Assembly: GCF_002161355.1 (NCBI RefSeq) | Contig: NZ_NFHL01000001.1 | Location: 620,001 to 684,000, forward strand | Source of the DNA: Lachnoclostridium sp. An76 | Lineage (GTDB): Bacteria > Bacillota > Clostridia > Lachnospirales > Lachnospiraceae | Direction of reading: 5' to 3' | DNA length: 64,000 bases | In this document: in pieces, positions 1 to 62,721 of the stretch | How the letters are laid out: the number at the start of each line of letters is the position of its first letter | Numbering within the stretch: the stretch's first letter is position 1 | Notes under the pieces: generated by a model | Told to the model about the DNA's origin: nothing | Seen by the model: the letters and a program-made list of their open reading frames with translations, nothing else | Database searches by the model: none | Made by a program: the position numbers and the translations under genes

Positions 1-2315
1 CTCTCGATCATGAACCGGTTATTCCCCAGGGGCTGGATCTCATAATAATCGTAAAAATCAGCCAATGTGGCGATCTGTTCGGAAGAGCGCTTCTCAAGCA
101 CCGCCTGGTACAGCTCGCCCGCCTCGCAGGCGCTTCCGATCAGAAGCCCTTCCCTGTGCTCATTGAGCAGGCTCTTCGGGATCCTGGGCCTCCTCGCATA
201 ATAGGTCAGATGAGACTCTGTAATGAGCTGGTACAGGTTATATCTCCCGATATCATTCTTCGCCAGGATAATGATATGGTGGGTCGGCATCTTGCGGATC
301 GCATTGACATTGCGGTCGCCATACCGGTTCACTTCTTTTAAGGTGGTAATATGGTCTTTTTTCAGCATTTCTACGAATTTCACGAAGATCTCCGCCGTCG
401 CCCCGGCGTCATCCACTGCCCGGTGATGGTTTTCCAGCGAGATATTCAGAGCCTTTGCCACGATATTCAGTTTATACTTGGACAGAGTGGGCAGGAGCAC
501 TCTCGCCAGCGCCACAGTGTCCACATAGACAAACCGGTCATCCAGCCCGAGGTTCCGGCAGTTCTGCCCGATAAACCCCACGTCGAACCCCGCATTGTGG
601 GCTACCAGCACGCCATCCCCCACGAATTCAAGGAACTGAGGGAGCACGGTCTCAATATTCGGGGAATCCATGACCATCTCATCCGTGATACTGGTCAGGT
701 TTGTGATCTCAAATGGGATCGGGCGCTCCGGGTTCACAAAGGTGCTGAACCGGTCCACGATCTCCCCGTTCACCACTTTGACCGCTCCGATCTCGATGAT
801 CCTGTCGCGGATCGAGCTGAAGCCCGTGGTCTCGATATCAAACACGATATACGTGTCGTCCAGGGACTGTTCCCCCGCATTGACCGCGATCTCTGTCAGG
901 TCGTCCACCACGTATCCTTCCACACCGTAAAGGATCTTAAACGGATCGTCTTTATCCAGTGTCTCTATGTAATGATTCGCCTCCGGGAATGCCTGCGCCA
1001 CCCCGTGGTCTGTGATGGCGATGGCAGGATGTCCCCAGTCATGGGCGCGCTTTACGATATTTTTCACATCAGACACGCCGTCCATATCACTCATCTTCGT
1101 ATGGCAGTGGAGCTCTACCCTTTTCAGCGGGCTGAGATCCTTCCTTGACACTGTAAAATCCCCGATCTTCTTTATCCCCGCGATGGAACCGATGGTCAGC
1201 TCTCCGTCAAATTTGTCGATGGTGGTGACGCCTTTGATCTTGACGAAAGCGCCTTTTTTGAGTTCTCCCAGGATTTCCGGGAGCTGGTCATTGCGGGCGA
1301 ACATTTTCACAGTGATCGTATCCGTAAAATCTGTGACCGAAAAGATGATGATCGTCTTTTCATTGCGGATCTCTCTTGTCTCAAAGCTGATGATCTTCCC
1401 GTGGAAGGTGATCTCTCCCATCTCTGTGACCACCTGATCCAGGGTGATGGGCTCATCGTCAAAGTTCCTTCCGTAGATCAGGTTCGGATCGTCTCCTGTC
1501 TTGACCGGGCGGTAGAAATCTTTTTTCTTAAATCCGCCCTTGCCGAACCCTTTCTTTCCTTTTTCCGAAGCGCCTGCACTGCGCGTCTGTCCTTTTCCAG
1601 CCCCTGCGCTGCTGCCGTGCCCGGCGGATGGAGCGGCGGGAGTCTTCTCTTTCCCGTCTGAGTGCGCTCCTTCTCCCGGTGTTTTCGTCTGTTCCGCTGC
1701 CGGCGTCTCGCCCCTCTGCCGTGCCCGGCGCTCGAAAATGGCATTGATCTCCTGCTGGATCCTCTGCTCGTCATACTCCCGGCTCCCTGTGCCGGAAGGC
1801 TCCCGGTAAGAGATGCGGATATCCGCTTTCATACGGAAGCGTTCTGCAAACATCTTTTCCAGATAAGCCAGGATCTCCTCCCTGCGCCCTTCTGATACGA
1901 TCGTATCCAGAAGCTCCAGGCAGACTACACTGCCTTCCTCATAATGGATCTCCGCCTGCGCGAACATGCTGGCAGCGAGCACGCTGGTTTCCCTCAGCTC
2001 CAGGATCATGCTTTCCCGGTATTCGTCCATCAGCGCCTCCGGCGTATACTGGCCTGACAGCGCGTATTCTTCTATGATCCGGATGCTCACCGGGGTTTTC
2101 GCAAAGAGCTGGTCCTTGATCCTCTGCTCCATCTGCCAGATCTGCTTCTTCTGGATCAGATGCCTGCTGAAAATATGCACATGAAGAAAATCACGGCGCG
2201 AATTCGTCGTGATCTTCTTAACCTCCACATCTGCGAACAGGATCTGTATATCATCCTCTGCCTTCAGTGTCGGGAATACATGAAAAAATACCTTATCGTT
2301 CTTCACCTGCTCCAA
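1..2315 (-). CDS. polC: DNA polymerase III alpha subunit, Gram-positive PolC type (partial, C-terminus cut by window edge)
   Basis: Replicative DNA polymerase with built-in 3'-5' proofreading. About 771 codons are visible and the frame is still open at base 1; full PolC is about 1450 residues. In order: an N-terminal domain, a charged low-complexity linker, an OB-fold segment (YGRNFDDEPITLDQV), the start of the PHP domain (ELHCHTKMSDMDGVSD), the DEDDh exonuclease inserted in PHP (YIVFDIETTGFSSIRDRIIE, then VAHNAGFDVGF and HHRAVDDA), and the resumption of PHP. The polymerase core lies outside. The start is a TTG at 2315, two bases after the ispG stop, with GGGAGAG six bases upstream; a GTG three codons later is the alternative. 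The tight spacing implies co-transcription with ispG. Confidence 0.95.
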   Translation of the reverse strand, partial: MEQVKNDKVFFHVFPTLKAEDDIQILFADVEVKKITTNSRRDFLHVHIFSRHLIQKKQIWQMEQRIKDQLFAKTPVSIRIIEEYALSGQYTPEALMDEYRESMILELRETSVLAASMFAQAEIHYEEGSVVCLELLDTIVSEGRREEILAYLEKMFAERFRMKADIRISYREPSGTGSREYDEQRIQQEINAIFERRARQRGETPAAEQTKTPGEGAHSDGKEKTPAAPSAGHGSSAGAGKGQTRSAGASEKGKKGFGKGGFKKKDFYRPVKTGDDPNLIYGRNFDDEPITLDQVVTEMGEITFHGKIISFETREIRNEKTIIIFSVTDFTDTITVKMFARNDQLPEILGELKKGAFVKIKGVTTIDKFDGELTIGSIAGIKKIGDFTVSRKDLSPLKRVELHCHTKMSDMDGVSDVKNIVKRAHDWGHPAIAITDHGVAQAFPEANHYIETLDKDDPFKILYGVEGYVVDDLTEIAVNAGEQSLDDTYIVFDIETTGFSSIRDRIIEIGAVKVVNGEIVDRFSTFVNPERPIPFEITNLTSITDEMVMDSPNIETVLPQFLEFVGDGVLVAHNAGFDVGFIGQNCRNLGLDDRFVYVDTVALARVLLPTLSKYKLNIVAKALNISLENHHRAVDDAGATAEIFVKFVEMLKKDHITTLKEVNRYGDRNVNAIRKMPTHHIIILAKNDIGRYNLYQLITESHLTYYARRPRIPKSLLNEHREGLLIGSACEAGELYQAVLEKRSSEQIATLADFYDYYEIQPLGNNRFMIE

Positions 2316-2317
2316 CC

Positions 2318-3379
2318 TTATCTCTCCCAGTTCAGAAGCTCCTGCCTCAGCGTCTCAAGCAGCTCTTCTTCCTTTACCTTTTTTACGATCTCGCCCTTCT
2401 TGATGAGCAGTCCTTCGCCGATGCCGCCGGCAATGCCGATGTCCGCTTCCTTCGCCTCGCCGGGGCCGTTCACCACGCAGCCCATGACAGCCACCTTAAT
2501 ATTGTCAAGGGGAATGTCCTGCACCATTTTCTCTACCTCATTGGCAAGGCTGATGAGATCGATCTTCGTCCTCCCGCATGTCGGGCATGACACGACCTCG
2601 ATCCCGCCTTTTCTCAGGCCCAGCGTCCTGAGGATCAGTTTCGCTGTGCGGATCTCTTCCGCCGGGTCCCCGGTCAGGGAGACGCGGATCGTATTACCGA
2701 TGCCCTCATACAGGATGATCCCCAGGCCCACGGAAGATTTCACATTGCCGGAGTACACGGTCCCGGACTCCGTGATACCTACATGGAGCGGGTACGGGCA
2801 CTCCTTCGCGATCAGCTCATGCGCCTTCACGCACATCATCACATCTGAGGATTTGATGCTCACGACCAGGTTGTCATATCCCATCCTTTCGATCATGTGC
2901 ACCTTATCCAGCGCGCTCTCCACGATCCCCTCCGCGGTGACGCCGCCGTATTTCTCCAGCAGATGCTTTTCCAGAGAGCCGCTGTTCACTCCGACCCGGA
3001 TCGGCACATTGTATTCTTTCGCCTTGTCAACAACCGCTTTCACCTTCTCTTCCGAACCGATATTCCCGGGATTGATGCGGATCTTGTCCGCCCCGTTCTC
3101 GATCGCCGCTATGGCGAGCCTGTAGTCAAAATGGATGTCCGCCACGAGGGGGATATGGATCCTGCTCCTGATCCCGCGGAGAGCTTCCGCCGCCTCCATT
3201 GTGGGCACAGCACAGCGGATGATCTCACATCCCGCTGCCTCCAGCTTCAATATCTGAGCCACTGTCGCTTCCACATCTTCTGTCCTGGTATTTGTCATGG
3301 ACTGGATCGCCACCGGGTTATCCCCTCCGATCTTTACGCCGCCGATGGAAATCTCCTTTGTCTGGTTCCTGTACATCAT
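2318..3379 (-). CDS. ispG: 4-hydroxy-3-methylbut-2-enyl diphosphate synthase (flavodoxin)
   Basis: IspG (GcpE) converts MEcPP to HMBPP in the MEP isoprenoid pathway and needs a 4Fe-4S cluster. The 353-residue length is normal for the short bacterial form. Visible signatures are the N-terminal TIM-barrel start GGDNPVAIQSMTNT, IRINPGNIG, and the cluster cysteines in SCPTCGRTKIDL and MGCVVNGPGEA near the C-terminus. The start at 3379 has AAGGAGGAAAAG just upstream. It runs directly into polC. In many Clostridia dxr and rseP precede ispG; here the upstream gene is an unrelated small membrane protein, so the rest of the MEP block is elsewhere. Confidence 0.96.
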   Translation of the reverse strand: MMYRNQTKEISIGGVKIGGDNPVAIQSMTNTRTEDVEATVAQILKLEAAGCEIIRCAVPTMEAAEALRGIRSRIHIPLVADIHFDYRLAIAAIENGADKIRINPGNIGSEEKVKAVVDKAKEYNVPIRVGVNSGSLEKHLLEKYGGVTAEGIVESALDKVHMIERMGYDNLVVSIKSSDVMMCVKAHELIAKECPYPLHVGITESGTVYSGNVKSSVGLGIILYEGIGNTIRVSLTGDPAEEIRTAKLILRTLGLRKGGIEVVSCPTCGRTKIDLISLANEVEKMVQDIPLDNIKVAVMGCVVNGPGEAKEADIGIAGGIGEGLLIKKGEIVKKVKEEELLETLRQELLNWER

Positions 3380-3446
3380 CTTTTCCTCCTTCCATCTTCT
3401 TTCTTCTCTCTTCCTTTCCTTCTATCTGCTTCTCCTTCAGGATAGC

Positions 3447-3475
3447 AGAGGAGTCCCGCCGAACGGAACTCCTCT
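3447..3475. terminator. Hairpin between small membrane protein gene and ispG
   Basis: A 12-bp stem (arms 3447-3458 and 3464-3475, one wobble) closes a 5-base loop. No T-run follows on either strand, so it is at best a weak intrinsic terminator or an mRNA-stabilising hairpin 20 bases after the stop at 3496. Confidence 0.45.
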
Positions 3476-3495
3476 CTGATCAACTCTTTGTCTGC

Positions 3496-3894
3496 CTACT
3501 TTCTTGTAAAGACCATCTGATCCCCGTACTCACGCTCTGTCAGCGTCAGGGTATCCTTCTCGATATTGTAATCATAGGATCCTGACAGAACGCCTTCCGC
3601 ATAAGCAGAATCCGTATATACAGTAAATATCTTATTTTTTGTATCCACGGTATACGACATGGGGGCAGCCTCTTCCTCTTCCCCGTCTGTACCGCCGGTC
3701 AGTGTCACTGCCCCGTCATCACCGATCTCAAGCACCGCGCCGCTGTCCTCGCTGACCCAGCTCCCTTCCAGGGGATTGCCGGTAAAAAGCTTTACGATAA
3801 AAAAGATCAATATGATGATAATGATCACCGAAGAGACAGTCAGGACCGTTCTCCAGAGAGTATTTCTTTTTTCTTCATTATTCTCGTAGATCAT
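3496..3894 (-). CDS. Small membrane-anchored protein of unknown function (possibly DUF5640-like)
   Basis: A 132-residue protein with a short polar N-terminus, one strong membrane helix (about residues 15-38, VSSVIIIIILIFFIVKLF) and an extracytoplasmic domain of alternating strands and turns. The domain has the pattern GSWVSEDSGAVLEIGDDGAVTL...YTVDTKNKIFTV...YDYNIEKDTLTLTERE, resembling small lipocalin-like domains of Firmicutes. The chosen ATG at 3894 has AAGGAAGG nine bases upstream; an in-frame ATG at 4002 lacks a ribosome binding site and would add a non-conserved-looking leader. No function can be assigned. It is divergent from the DUF368 gene. Confidence 0.7.
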   Translation of the reverse strand: MIYENNEEKRNTLWRTVLTVSSVIIIIILIFFIVKLFTGNPLEGSWVSEDSGAVLEIGDDGAVTLTGGTDGEEEEAAPMSYTVDTKNKIFTVYTDSAYAEGVLSGSYDYNIEKDTLTLTEREYGDQMVFTRK

Positions 3895-4007
3895 AAGCTG
3901 TTTCCTTCCTTTTTTCTGTCTTTCATTATACGGATTTCGCTGTGTGATGTCAACGCTCCAAAAGGGACGGATCCCCTCCCCCCGCAGATGCAGGAACTGC
4001 ATTTTAC

Positions 4008-4036
4008 TTGCAAAAACCGCAGAAAAATAGTATAAA
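4008..4036 (+). promoter_or_regulatory. Predicted sigma-A promoter of the DUF368 gene
   Basis: TTGCAA (-35, 4008-4013), a 17-bp spacer and TATAAA (-10, 4031-4036). The start codon is about 50 bases downstream. Confidence 0.6.
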
Positions 4037-4088
4037 TACTATGGTCTGTAAAATAAGTATATGAAGAAAAGAAAGGATTTACAAACAT

Positions 4089-4934
4089 ATGGACAAAAAG
4101 CCAAGCAGCAATTTTAACCCACTGCAGTTTCTGTTCCGCGTCATACAGGGCGCGCTGATCGGGCTCGGGGCGGTCCTGCCCGGCATATCCGGAGGCGTGC
4201 TGGGTGTGATCTTCGGCATCTACAAGCCGATCATGGAACTGTTATCCAATCCGTTTAAAAATTTCCGGACTCATGTGCCGAAACTGATCCCCGTATTCAT
4301 CGGCGGCGTCATCGGTTTCCTGGGCGTGGCAAATATCCTTGCCTTCTTCCTCAACAAGTACCCGGATCCGTCTGTCTGCCTCTTCATCGGCCTGATCGGG
4401 GGCATGCTGCCCTCCCTGTTCCGCGAAGCAGGCGAGCAGGGCAGGACAAAAGGCTCCTGGATCTCTCTTGTCGTATGCATGTGTGTTATTTTCGCACTGC
4501 TCATCGGACTTCAGATGACATCCGTTGAGATCGCGCCGAACTTTTTCTGGTATCTGTTCTGCGGATTCTGCCTCGCCCTGAGCGTGATCGCTCCCGGCAT
4601 GAGCTTTTCCACACTGCTGATGCCCCTCGGTCTTTACACGCCGTTCGTGGACGGGATCGGACACTTTGACATGGGAGTGCTCATCCCGGGCGGGATCGGG
4701 GCACTGGTGACAGTCATCCTGCTCGCCAAGGCGATCAACGCACTGTTTGACAATTACTATTCCATCGCCTTCCACGGCATTGTGGGCATTGTGATCGCGG
4801 CAACCGTCATGATCATCCCGGTCCAGAGCTTCCTCACCGCAGGTTCAGCTATCGTCAACCTGATCTGCATCGCGGTCGGTATCGTCTGCGCGCTGGCGCT
4901 GGATAAGTTCAACAGCCGGGTCAAAGTAGAGTAA
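4089..4934 (+). CDS. DUF368 family polytopic membrane protein
   Basis: A 281-residue protein with about eight predicted membrane helices. The N-terminal signature GALIGLGAVLPGISGGVLGVIFGIY and the related internal segment SVIAPGMSFSTLLMPLGLY form the internal duplication typical of DUF368. In some bacteria DUF368 and the related DedA-like families have been linked to flipping of undecaprenyl phosphate; for this protein that remains an inference. The ATG at 4089 follows AAAGGA. The gene is monocistronic: its stop codon touches repeat element 1, beyond which hisC converges. Confidence 0.88.
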   Translation: MDKKPSSNFNPLQFLFRVIQGALIGLGAVLPGISGGVLGVIFGIYKPIMELLSNPFKNFRTHVPKLIPVFIGGVIGFLGVANILAFFLNKYPDPSVCLFIGLIGGMLPSLFREAGEQGRTKGSWISLVVCMCVIFALLIGLQMTSVEIAPNFFWYLFCGFCLALSVIAPGMSFSTLLMPLGLYTPFVDGIGHFDMGVLIPGGIGALVTVILLAKAINALFDNYYSIAFHGIVGIVIAATVMIIPVQSFLTAGSAIVNLICIAVGIVCALALDKFNSRVKVE

Positions 4935-60444: not shown

Positions 60445-60530
60445 CGGAGACGGAGGGATTCGAACCCTCGTGCCCCGGAGGGCAAACGCATTTCGAGTGC
60501 GCCCCGTTATGACCACTTCGATACGTCTCC
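60445..60530 (-). tRNA. tRNA-Ser (anticodon CGA)
   Basis: An 86-nt class II tRNA on the minus strand. The acceptor stem GGAGACG pairs with CGTCTCC and discriminator G. The anticodon arm is GCGCA-CTCGAAA-TGCGT with anticodon CGA (codon UCG). A long variable arm (TGCCCTCCGGGGCA) typical of serine precedes the T arm GAGGGTTCGAATCCCTC. CCA is not encoded. Confidence 0.95.
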
Positions 60531-60574: not shown

Positions 60575-60667
60575 ATTATAGCAGAGCTATGCATAAAAAG
60601 GAAGACCCAAATCTCAATTTGATCATCTTTCCGGCAACAGTCCAGCCATCAAGCTGTGCGGGTTTCC
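60575..60667. repeat. 93-bp direct repeat, left copy (target duplication of the IS)
   Basis: Identical to 62629-62721 over its whole length, beginning ATTATAGCAGAGCTATGC and ending GTGCGGGTTTCC; flanks differ immediately outside. Confidence 0.9.
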
Positions 60668-60703
60668 CGGGAGTTTGACAGTTTAATAATAGAAAAATAC
60701 CTT

Positions 60704-60730
60704 GCAGGCCGCATAAAACCTGCTTTTTTT
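60704..60730 (+). terminator. Terminator at the left end of the IS
   Basis: GCAGG/CCTGC stem with a 10-base loop and seven T, upstream of the transposase promoter. Confidence 0.75.
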
Positions 60731-60806
60731 GTGTCAATTTTTTAGTTTTTATATATGTTATTTTATGTTATTGTATGATATAATAAGGGATAAGGAGGGA
60801 TCAGCT

Positions 60807-62534
60807 ATGAATCTTCACATATCAAAATCAAAAAACGCAGAGTCATTTTATATCTGCAAATCTTTCGTAAAAGCAAATGGCAGTACTTCTTCTATGATTG
60901 TCCGCAAGCTGGGAACTTTAGAACAGCTTTTAGTCGAGCACGGCCCGACAAGAGATGATGTTCTTACTTGGGCAAAGAATGAAGTGAAAATAGAAACCGA
61001 AAAATATAAAAAGGAAAAAGAAGCCAAAACAGTGTTGATCCCCTTTCACGCAGACAGGCAGTTAGACTATGGCAAGCAGGTCTTTTACCGGGGCGGCTAC
61101 CTTTTTCTCCAATCGATCTATTATCAGATGCAGATGAATAAGATCTGCCGGAAGTTAAAACAAAAATATAAGTTTAAATATGACATCAACGCAATCCTTT
61201 CCGATTTGATCTACGCAAGGATCCTGGAGCCTTGCAGCAAACGTGCTTCTTACAAGACCGCATTAGAGTTTTTAGAAAAACCATCCTACAAACTTCACGA
61301 TGTATACCGTGCGCTGGATGTCCTCGGGGCTGAATGTGACCTGATCCAGGCGGAGGTCTATAAAAACAGCCATTTCATGGGTCAAAGGAATGATAAGATC
61401 CTTTATTACGACTGCACGAATTATTATTTTGAGATTGAACAGGAAGACGGCAGCAAGAAATATGGGAAGGGGAAGGAACACAGACCGAACCCGATCATCC
61501 AAATGGGACTTTTCATGGACGGGGATGGGATCCCCCTTGCGTTTTCTCTCTTCCCGGGAAATGCAAACGAGCAGACATCGCTGAAGCCACTGGAGAAGAA
61601 AGTGCTTAGTGATTTCGGATGCCAGAAATTCATTTATTGCAGCGATGCCGGGCTGGGTTCGGAATCCATCCGGGAATACAACCATATGGGGGAAAGGGCT
61701 TATATCGTAACCCAGTCGATCAAAAAGCTGAAGAAAGAAGAAAAAGAATGGGCGCTGAGCCCGCAGGGGTTTAAACGGGTCTCCGATGACGAGCCTGTCG
61801 ATATCACGAAACTTCCGGAAGATGACAAAGGGCTTTATTACAAGGATGAACCATATACCACTAAGAAACTGCACCAACGCTTGATCATCACTTATTCTCC
61901 AAAGTATGCCCTGTATCAGAAATCCATCCGTGATACACAGGTGGAACGGGCACAAAAAATGCTGGATTCGGGAAAAGCGAAAAGGAACCGTAAGAATCCG
62001 AATGACCCGGCGCGTTTTATCGGAAAGAAGGCTGTTACAAAAGATGGGGAGGCTGCGGATATCAAACAGTATCTGGATGAGGATAAGATTGCGGAAGAGG
62101 CGCAGTATGATGGGCTCTATGCAGTATGCACGGATCTTTTGGATGATGAGGTCGGTGATATTTTAAAAGTAAGTGAGGGGAGGTGGCAGATCGAGGAATG
62201 CTTCCGGATCATGAAAACAGATTTTTCTGCAAGACCGATCTATTTACGGGAAGAGAACCGGATCAAGGCACATTTCCTGATCTGTTTCCTCGCATTAACC
62301 GTCTACCGTTATCTTGAGAAAAAACTGGATTCAAAATATACCTGTGAAGAATTGCTGGATACCCTAAAAGGAATGAATTTCGCCGGGATACAGGAGCAGG
62401 GATTCATCCCGCTGTATCGGCGGGAAAAGATTACTGATGACCTTCATGAAGCCTGCGGTTTCCGGACAGACTACCAATTCATAACTAAAAGTAAAATGAG
62501 AACAATCCAGAAAAAAAGCAAAGGGAAGGAATAA
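60807..62534 (+). CDS. IS1634-family DDE transposase
   Basis: A 575-residue transposase. N-terminal DNA-binding part with SFVKANGSTSSMIVRKLGTLEQL; DDE catalytic core with first Asp in ILYYDCTNYYFE, second Asp in FIYCSDAGLGS and Glu in WQIEECFRIMKTDF (the YREK-like region of IS4 relatives). The insert between second Asp and Glu is long and lysine-rich, as in IS1634. The ATG at 60807 follows AAGGAGG; TATAAT lies at 60778-60783. Complete and without frameshift, so probably active. Confidence 0.94.
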   Translation: MNLHISKSKNAESFYICKSFVKANGSTSSMIVRKLGTLEQLLVEHGPTRDDVLTWAKNEVKIETEKYKKEKEAKTVLIPFHADRQLDYGKQVFYRGGYLFLQSIYYQMQMNKICRKLKQKYKFKYDINAILSDLIYARILEPCSKRASYKTALEFLEKPSYKLHDVYRALDVLGAECDLIQAEVYKNSHFMGQRNDKILYYDCTNYYFEIEQEDGSKKYGKGKEHRPNPIIQMGLFMDGDGIPLAFSLFPGNANEQTSLKPLEKKVLSDFGCQKFIYCSDAGLGSESIREYNHMGERAYIVTQSIKKLKKEEKEWALSPQGFKRVSDDEPVDITKLPEDDKGLYYKDEPYTTKKLHQRLIITYSPKYALYQKSIRDTQVERAQKMLDSGKAKRNRKNPNDPARFIGKKAVTKDGEAADIKQYLDEDKIAEEAQYDGLYAVCTDLLDDEVGDILKVSEGRWQIEECFRIMKTDFSARPIYLREENRIKAHFLICFLALTVYRYLEKKLDSKYTCEELLDTLKGMNFAGIQEQGFIPLYRREKITDDLHEACGFRTDYQFITKSKMRTIQKKSKGKE

Positions 62535-62558
62535 ATTACTATAGTTCGAAACAACGGA

Positions 62559-62604
62559 AAAAATCGCTGCACCCCGGTAAACACAAGGGATACAGCGATT
62601 TTTT
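62559..62604. terminator. Terminator after the transposase gene
   Basis: AAAAAATCGCTG pairs with CAGCGATTTTTT over 22 bases; works on either strand. Confidence 0.85.
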
Positions 62605-62628
62605 CTTCCAATAACTGTCAAAGACAGG

Positions 62629-62721
62629 ATTATAGCAGAGCTATGCATAAAAAGGAAGACCCAAATCTCAATTTGATCATCTTTCCGGCAACAGTCCAGC
62701 CATCAAGCTGTGCGGGTTTCC
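62629..62721. repeat. 93-bp direct repeat, right copy
   Basis: Exact match of 60575-60667. Together with the left copy it represents the duplicated intergenic sequence between tRNA-Ser and comEC. Confidence 0.9.

Follow-up and report, generated by a model that had tools for sequence, protein, structure and literature searches.

What sets the length and the position of a long target duplication? The question is raised by an insertion sequence (IS) in the genome of Lachnoclostridium sp. An76, which lies between two copies of a 93-bp direct repeat. We analysed this locus within a stretch of 64,000 nucleotides (the window), together with the other copies found in the same genome and related elements from other genomes. 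An earlier note, made from the letters of the window, had described the IS as an IS1634-family element inserted recently by the same staggered-cut mechanism as Mycoplasma IS1634. The explanation which we consider probable is that a clade of the IS1634 family, found mainly in Bacillota, inserts at sigma-A promoters in a fixed orientation and thereby duplicates the promoter.

The insertion sequence and the duplicated tRNA-Ser promoter

The intact IS (60668..62628, plus strand), delimited by ends common to its two further copies in the genome (L002 and L003) and to relatives, comprises 1961 bp and contains a single open reading frame, encoding a DDE-type transposase of 575 amino acids (60807..62534, plus strand). 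Its assignment to the IS1634 family was borne out by the NCBIfam model NF033559 ("IS1634 family transposase"; 361.9 bits, cut-off 100), with Pfam PF01609 matching at 44.4 bits. In the AlphaFold model of the transposase (mean pLDDT 80), the nearest solved fold is that of Tn5 transposase, a weak match (Foldseek E 3.7e-6, TM-score about 0.33-0.42). The terminal sequences of the IS are CGGGAGTTTGACAGTT / AACTGTCAAAGACAGG, the left end CGGGAGTTTGACAGTT occupying 60668..60683 on the plus strand and the right end, read on the minus strand as CCTGTCTTTGACAGTT, occupying 62613..62628. Both ends have TTTGACAGTT in common, six bases inside each tip; TTGACA is present within the ends, the inverted repeat of the IS being TTTGACA.

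According to the family table in the consulted part of PMC2266710, IS1634-family members are 1500-2000 bp long, have ends of the form C-----YT and produce target duplications of 5-6 bp. The window IS agrees in size and ends (1961 bp; CGGGAGTT and CCTGTCTT) but not in its duplication, which is 93 bp here and 30-278 bp in relatives. We kept the family name because the same part of that source names IS1634 and IS1549 as exceptions. Inside the right end there is a strong hairpin, flanked by A and T runs and resembling a bidirectional terminator (62556..62606; z -5.7 on the plus strand and -6.3 on the minus strand), which shows compensatory changes in 6/6 consensus stem pairs among 25 relatives. 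The left end contains a small terminator-like hairpin followed by a T run (60704..60723, plus strand; -6.7 kcal/mol, z -1.3), a weak structure, with 20/200 shuffles folding equally well.

The left (60575..60667) and right (62629..62721) copies of the target duplication are identical over 93 bp, as the earlier note had claimed. Since the second-longest direct repeat family in the same 3.3 kb measures only 23 nt at 70-78% identity, the identity of the two copies is far above chance. The gene whose promoter is duplicated is tRNA-Ser (CGA), located by ARAGORN at 60445..60530 on the minus strand. At a distance of 44 bp from it lies a -10 box TATAAT (60575..60580, minus strand), which is extended by a preceding TGC, is kept in the sister species G051 and belongs to the left copy, which retains the tRNA-Ser promoter. 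The corresponding TATAAT of the right copy (62629..62634, minus strand; 6/6 at the right junction) adjoins the IS right end, and the promoter of this copy is aimed into that end. Both boxes fit the junction motif found across the related copies described below. At a spacer of 17 bp from the extended -10 box, the -35 element is TTCCTT, a poor match (2/6 positions by a count made by eye). Judging from its sequence, the 93-bp repeat, which starts at the tRNA-Ser -10 box and at the IS right end, is a promoter rather than an arbitrary target.

In G051, tRNA-Ser, the repeat region and the neighbouring gene, probably comEC-like, are contiguous, with no IS between them. When compared with a virtual IS-free site, the G051 locus gave one alignment running through the site (77% identity, 1533 columns). 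There, a single copy of the initial 56 bp of the repeat is found at about 91%, and the remainder of the 93-bp repeat and the adjoining bases are diverged or deleted. This IS-free, single-copy locus indicates that the repeat came about through the insertion, subject to the caveat that G051 is another species. It provides the empty site which had been sought in a sister strain, with 56 bp or more from the start of the repeat occurring once, and upholds the view of a true target duplication in a clostridial host. The insertion is probably recent, as proposed, both repeat copies being identical. A duplication predating the IS was rejected, G051 having one copy, and so was an assembly artefact, on account of the same single-copy state and of the long repeats found in the single-contig genomes G093 and G174. 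Another genome, G035, was considered as a nearer relative that might show the site and was set aside: its tRNA-Ser match has a different orientation, lies near a contig end and does not show the site.

Promoter register and repeat lengths among related copies

The main set of relatives comprised the best 80 of 262 loci from a contig scan together with three copies from the An76 genome (83 in all), of which 17 were left out for a missing IS end, so that both ends were recognised in 66. Right junctions were read outward from the IS (66 distinct ones, 1/67 having been removed as a duplicate), and their first six bases form the motif ATTATA, the reverse complement of the -10 box TATAAT (base frequencies A.92, T.77, T.88, A.65, T.94, A.91). 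A -10 match of at least 5/6 occurs at 51/66 right junctions; the background, taken over every position of the flanks and both strands, is 0.9%. The -35 element was scored against the textbook TTGACA, with no fitting, at spacers from 12 to 22. At spacer 17, matches of at least 4/6 were found in 29/66 junctions and of at least 5/6 in 16/66; spacer 18 gave 7 and 4, respectively, and each of the other spacers at most 3 at the level of 4/6 or better. Among the positions of their own flanks, the junctions have a median rank of 0.0007 by promoter score; 13/66 rank above 0.05 and are not promoter-like. When left ends were read outward in the same manner, the -10 box appeared in 1/66, and allowing a shift of up to 3 bases raised this to 3/66 left ends versus 54/66 right ends. 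Plain AT-richness as the source of the ATTATA motif is excluded by the background, spacer and left-end controls.

A motif of this kind could also be produced by a transposase that reads DNA words by itself, ATTATA at the cut and perhaps TGTCAA, which resembles its own TTTGACA, with RNA polymerase playing no part. The tightness of the junction motif and the occurrence of TTGACA inside the IS ends are in keeping with such reading. However, among sites with a matching -10 box, a -35 element of at least 5/6 at 17 bp accompanies 15/51 junctions but only 35/1169 intergenic -10 look-alikes (Fisher 2e-10), which means that far more than ATTATA is read. In addition, three elements (L214, L216 and own2) have ends TTCAACA / TTCGACA, yet several of their targets, small in number, carry a TTG-type -35 element. 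Word reading by the transposase therefore seems to us possible, if rather doubtful.

A second set was assembled by comparing the transposase of a streptococcal phage with 147 genomes of the host's class, 20 of which gave matches. It contains 33 places from the longer match list, three copies of a second IS1634-family element of the An76 genome and three plasmid or phage copies (39 in total), with the right end recognisable in 30/39 and L224 standing outside this analysis; scans of viral contigs for an independent set yielded no relatives. Within the window's clade, this set has a -10 match of at least 5/6 in 19/23 junctions and -35 matches of at least 4/6 in 9 at spacer 17, 3 at spacer 16 and 2 at spacer 18; 19/23 have a repeat beginning at the right end, with lengths of 14-409 bp. 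For the clade in both sets, the -10 box is matched at 5/6 or better in 70/89 junctions and the -35 element at 4/6 or better in 38/89 at spacer 17, the next spacer accounting for 9. One single distant copy, L213, has a perfect TTGACA 17 bp from CATAAT. The register and the control counts indicate that roughly three insertions out of four are at a promoter, with the register kept and the orientation always the same.

Repeats at other copies, for which the earlier note had considered that short duplications only might be found, are long and variable in 29/46 main-set loci with at least 300 bp on each side, a group that covers relatives and siblings; the remaining 17/46 have none, the siblings in the same genome being among these. 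Two further main-set loci with short flanks also carry a repeat (31 in all). Lengths in the main set range from 30 to 184 bp, with one repeat of 278 bp at a contig end (L114), and 29/31 repeats are exact, the other two being about 99% identical. At L064 (179 bp) and L114, IS left-end sequence comes again after the right repeat, which may represent a tandem insertion or an assembly loop. For the 29 main-set loci other than these two, the upstream cut lies 30-183 bp from the right end (median 86) and beyond the -35 box in every case, with a weak preference for T at -5 (.66) and -4 (.62) and for C just after the cut (.59). The left neighbour is on the minus strand, pointing away from the IS, in 26/31 repeat-bearing loci, and these 26 genes lie at a median of 48 bp from the repeat edge, a usual leader length. 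Right neighbours are on the plus strand in 9/27 and on the minus strand in 18/27, by crude gene calls (longest non-overlapping ORFs and ARAGORN).

Two loci of the wider collection deserve separate description. L200 (G129:C11:1-19800) contains three near-identical copies of one relative, spaced at about 5.9 kb and oriented alike; every copy occupies a separate promoter-like site and has its own repeat (144, 121 and 113 bp). L121, a distant copy on the Ligilactobacillus salivarius plasmid pBNS11-37kb, lies upstream of an erm(C) leader, and its 14-bp repeat, the shortest in the clade, begins at a TATAAT-type box.

Insertion itself might be less selective, with selection keeping those events which spare a promoter by duplicating it. 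Such selection would suit the finding that the duplication spans the whole region from the -35 to the -10 box in 29 main-set loci (shortest 30 bp), but it leaves unexplained why the right end keeps an exact register (51/66) and the left end falls on a -10 box in 1/66, and the 14-bp duplication survives in L121. We regard this alternative as very unlikely. From comparison of the sequences, we take four points as demonstrated: right ends are in register with the -10 box, with the -35 element 17 bp away; the orientation is fixed; the upstream cut varies; and the sister locus is free of the IS. Counted against insertion at promoters as the general explanation were the 13/66 junctions that are not promoter-like, the 2/6 match of the -35 element in the window, the 17/46 loci without a repeat, the 14 bp of L121, and the right neighbours lying on the minus strand in 18/27 by the crude gene calls.

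Copies without repeats and the proposed mechanism

The listing of repeat lengths at other copies in the An76 genome, suggested in the earlier note, gave a divided picture. The two further near-full copies of the IS (L002, 99% identical, and L003, 93% identical) have no flanking repeat; the second IS1634-family element is present in three copies with repeats of 406, 97 and 110 bp. One copy of this second element, L115 (G000:C7, about 2105-4264), measures 2159 bp compared with 2092 bp and has a short internal duplication in the transposase region.

Many insertions may make no duplication at all, the 93-bp repeat then being one outcome of an irregular reaction, or repeats may partly be assembly artefacts. 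The 17/46 informative loci without a repeat, both same-genome siblings included, can be cited for this reading, as can the observation that the right flanks of L002 and L003 have no second copy elsewhere in the genome. The flanks of these loci speak for a different origin. Among the 17 no-repeat loci with at least 300 bp on both sides, the left gene is on the minus strand in 14, and a leftward promoter (score at least 10), pointing away from the IS, lies within 330 bp of the left end in 14/17, as if two promoter insertions were involved. By the same count over all 29 loci with no repeat seen, a group that includes loci with a short right flank, the proportion is 62%, compared with 12% of 272 control windows. 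Given these leftward promoters, both halves of the no-repeat loci look like halves of promoter insertions. At L002, the sister G054 (about 96% identical) passes through the left junction without an IS, and the right flank is on a separate G054 contig, beside a run of N. In ten members of the genus, the two L002 flanks share a contig, a strand and their order, with 0.3 to 11 kb between them, which fits a deletion between two insertions. The no-repeat state is most simply read as the result of such a deletion by recombination; in drafts, misassembly is possible. Artefactual repeats are further contradicted by the long repeats in the single-contig genomes mentioned above, and we consider an irregular or artefactual origin unlikely.

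Returning to insertion at promoters, we infer the strand chemistry, the finding of sites by way of RNA polymerase bound at the promoter and the function of the hairpin as follows. In standard DDE chemistry, the 3'-OH of a transposon end joins a target strand. Combined with the junctions, this chemistry implies that the right-end 3'-OH must have joined the plus strand just 5' of ATTATA. The joined strand would be the template strand of the promoter, entered at about -7/-6, where the -10 box ends on its downstream side and where the transcription bubble would lie; at this position, the template strand is single-stranded in the open complex. The join of the left-end 3'-OH would be to the opposite strand and only loosely positioned, as a rule 30-280 bp upstream, and gap repair would duplicate everything between the two joins, promoter included. 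The left promoter copy would continue to serve the host gene, tRNA-Ser in the present case. Its counterpart on the right would be aimed into the IS, with the bidirectional-terminator-like hairpin in its path, and this hairpin may stop antisense transcription into the transposase gene.

We tentatively propose that promoter-bound sigma-A RNA polymerase acts as the target receptor and that a second join made outside its upstream footprint sets the duplication length, with no fixed stagger, a proposal that we hold with somewhat less than balanced confidence. Docking on the polymerase is the mechanism that we favour, and direct word reading by the transposase is its main rival. A promoter covered by polymerase should place the upstream cut beyond the -35 box, but the same position would follow from selection that keeps the promoter intact.

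Extent of the trait and comparison with known systems

In the phylogenetic tree, the window element falls within a clade of 30 rows (support 100/100), which comprises Lachnospiraceae, other Clostridia, Carnobacterium, Ligilactobacillus and a streptococcal phage. Among the tree rows scored at their junctions (L204, L211, L212 and L224 left out), the -10 match is 2/6 in L205 (G093), 3/6 in L122 and 4/6 in own2C, and because of these low values the description as promoter-anchored fits the 30-row clade as a group rather than every row. The more distant element of G093 has a -10 match of at least 5/6 at one of six junctions and long repeats in five of six copies (63-1018 bp, with a provisional left boundary for the two longest). 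Copies in Mycoplasmopsis gallopavonis also have long repeats (e.g., 44, 55, 125 and 256 bp), with a -10 match of at least 5/6 in 2/12 distinct right junctions and both boxes in none; one junction has a -35 element of 4/6 at spacer 17, but a -10 match of 1/6. Promoter anchoring as a rule for the whole family was rejected on the counts for the G093 element (one of six junctions) and Mycoplasmopsis (2/12).

The other distant junctions are single copies read by eye. Their repeats measure 682 bp in Aliarcobacter, about 416 bp in Persicobacter, 58 bp in Actinomyces and 24 bp in Rhodococcus; a Geobacillus plasmid copy (L125) has a 6-bp repeat, and five more distant copies, with uncertain ends, have no repeat or one of only 4-7 bp. 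The 682-bp repeat of L124 (Aliarcobacter cryaerophilus plasmid pCNAC48) is 99.9% identical, and that IS has an annotated Crp/Fnr-type gene to either side. At L134, an apparent repeat was discarded as part of a neighbouring IS fragment rather than a target repeat. In our reading, the long duplication is the more widespread trait, and promoter anchoring was gained within one mainly Bacillota clade or close to it. Of the proposal that the window IS shares its staggered-cut mechanism with Mycoplasma IS1634, the likeness in repeat length stands, but the Mycoplasma-type relatives are without promoter anchoring.

Within this clade, a promoter element sets the exact base of one cut, and variation is confined to the other; the problem of long duplications is thereby split into two halves, each open to testing. 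Should polymerase be the receptor, the clade would represent a case in prokaryotes of a transposon directed by the transcription machinery, with the host gene spared through a built-in duplication of its promoter. The right junctions of such elements would also flag promoters in uncultured Clostridia. In the titles and abstract openings of a library of open-access papers, we found no report of promoter anchoring of such IS.

Among described elements, IS1634 (Mycoplasma mycoides) and IS1549 (Mycobacterium smegmatis) resemble the window IS both in their transposase family and in their long, variable direct repeats, which range from 8 to 514 bp and for whose variable length, as the consulted part of PMC2266710 states, no model had been put forward. 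A promoter register is likewise not mentioned for them in that part of the source, and their junctions were compared here through the Mycoplasmopsis gallopavonis relatives (2/12). Members with short repeats, such as ISGka5 of Geobacillus, belong to the same family and are similar in size, but have repeats of 6 bp, as given in the consulted part of PMC8024623, compared with 93 bp. The Tn5/IS50 transposase, of the IS4 superfamily, is the nearest, albeit weakly matching, solved fold to the window transposase. Tn5/IS50 makes duplications of about 9 bp and is not known to keep a promoter register. The yeast elements Ty1 and Ty3, whose integration is steered by the transcription machinery to transcription start regions and produces short duplications, are alike in outline to the clade described here, but they are eukaryotic, depend on RNA polymerase III and are elements of another kind.
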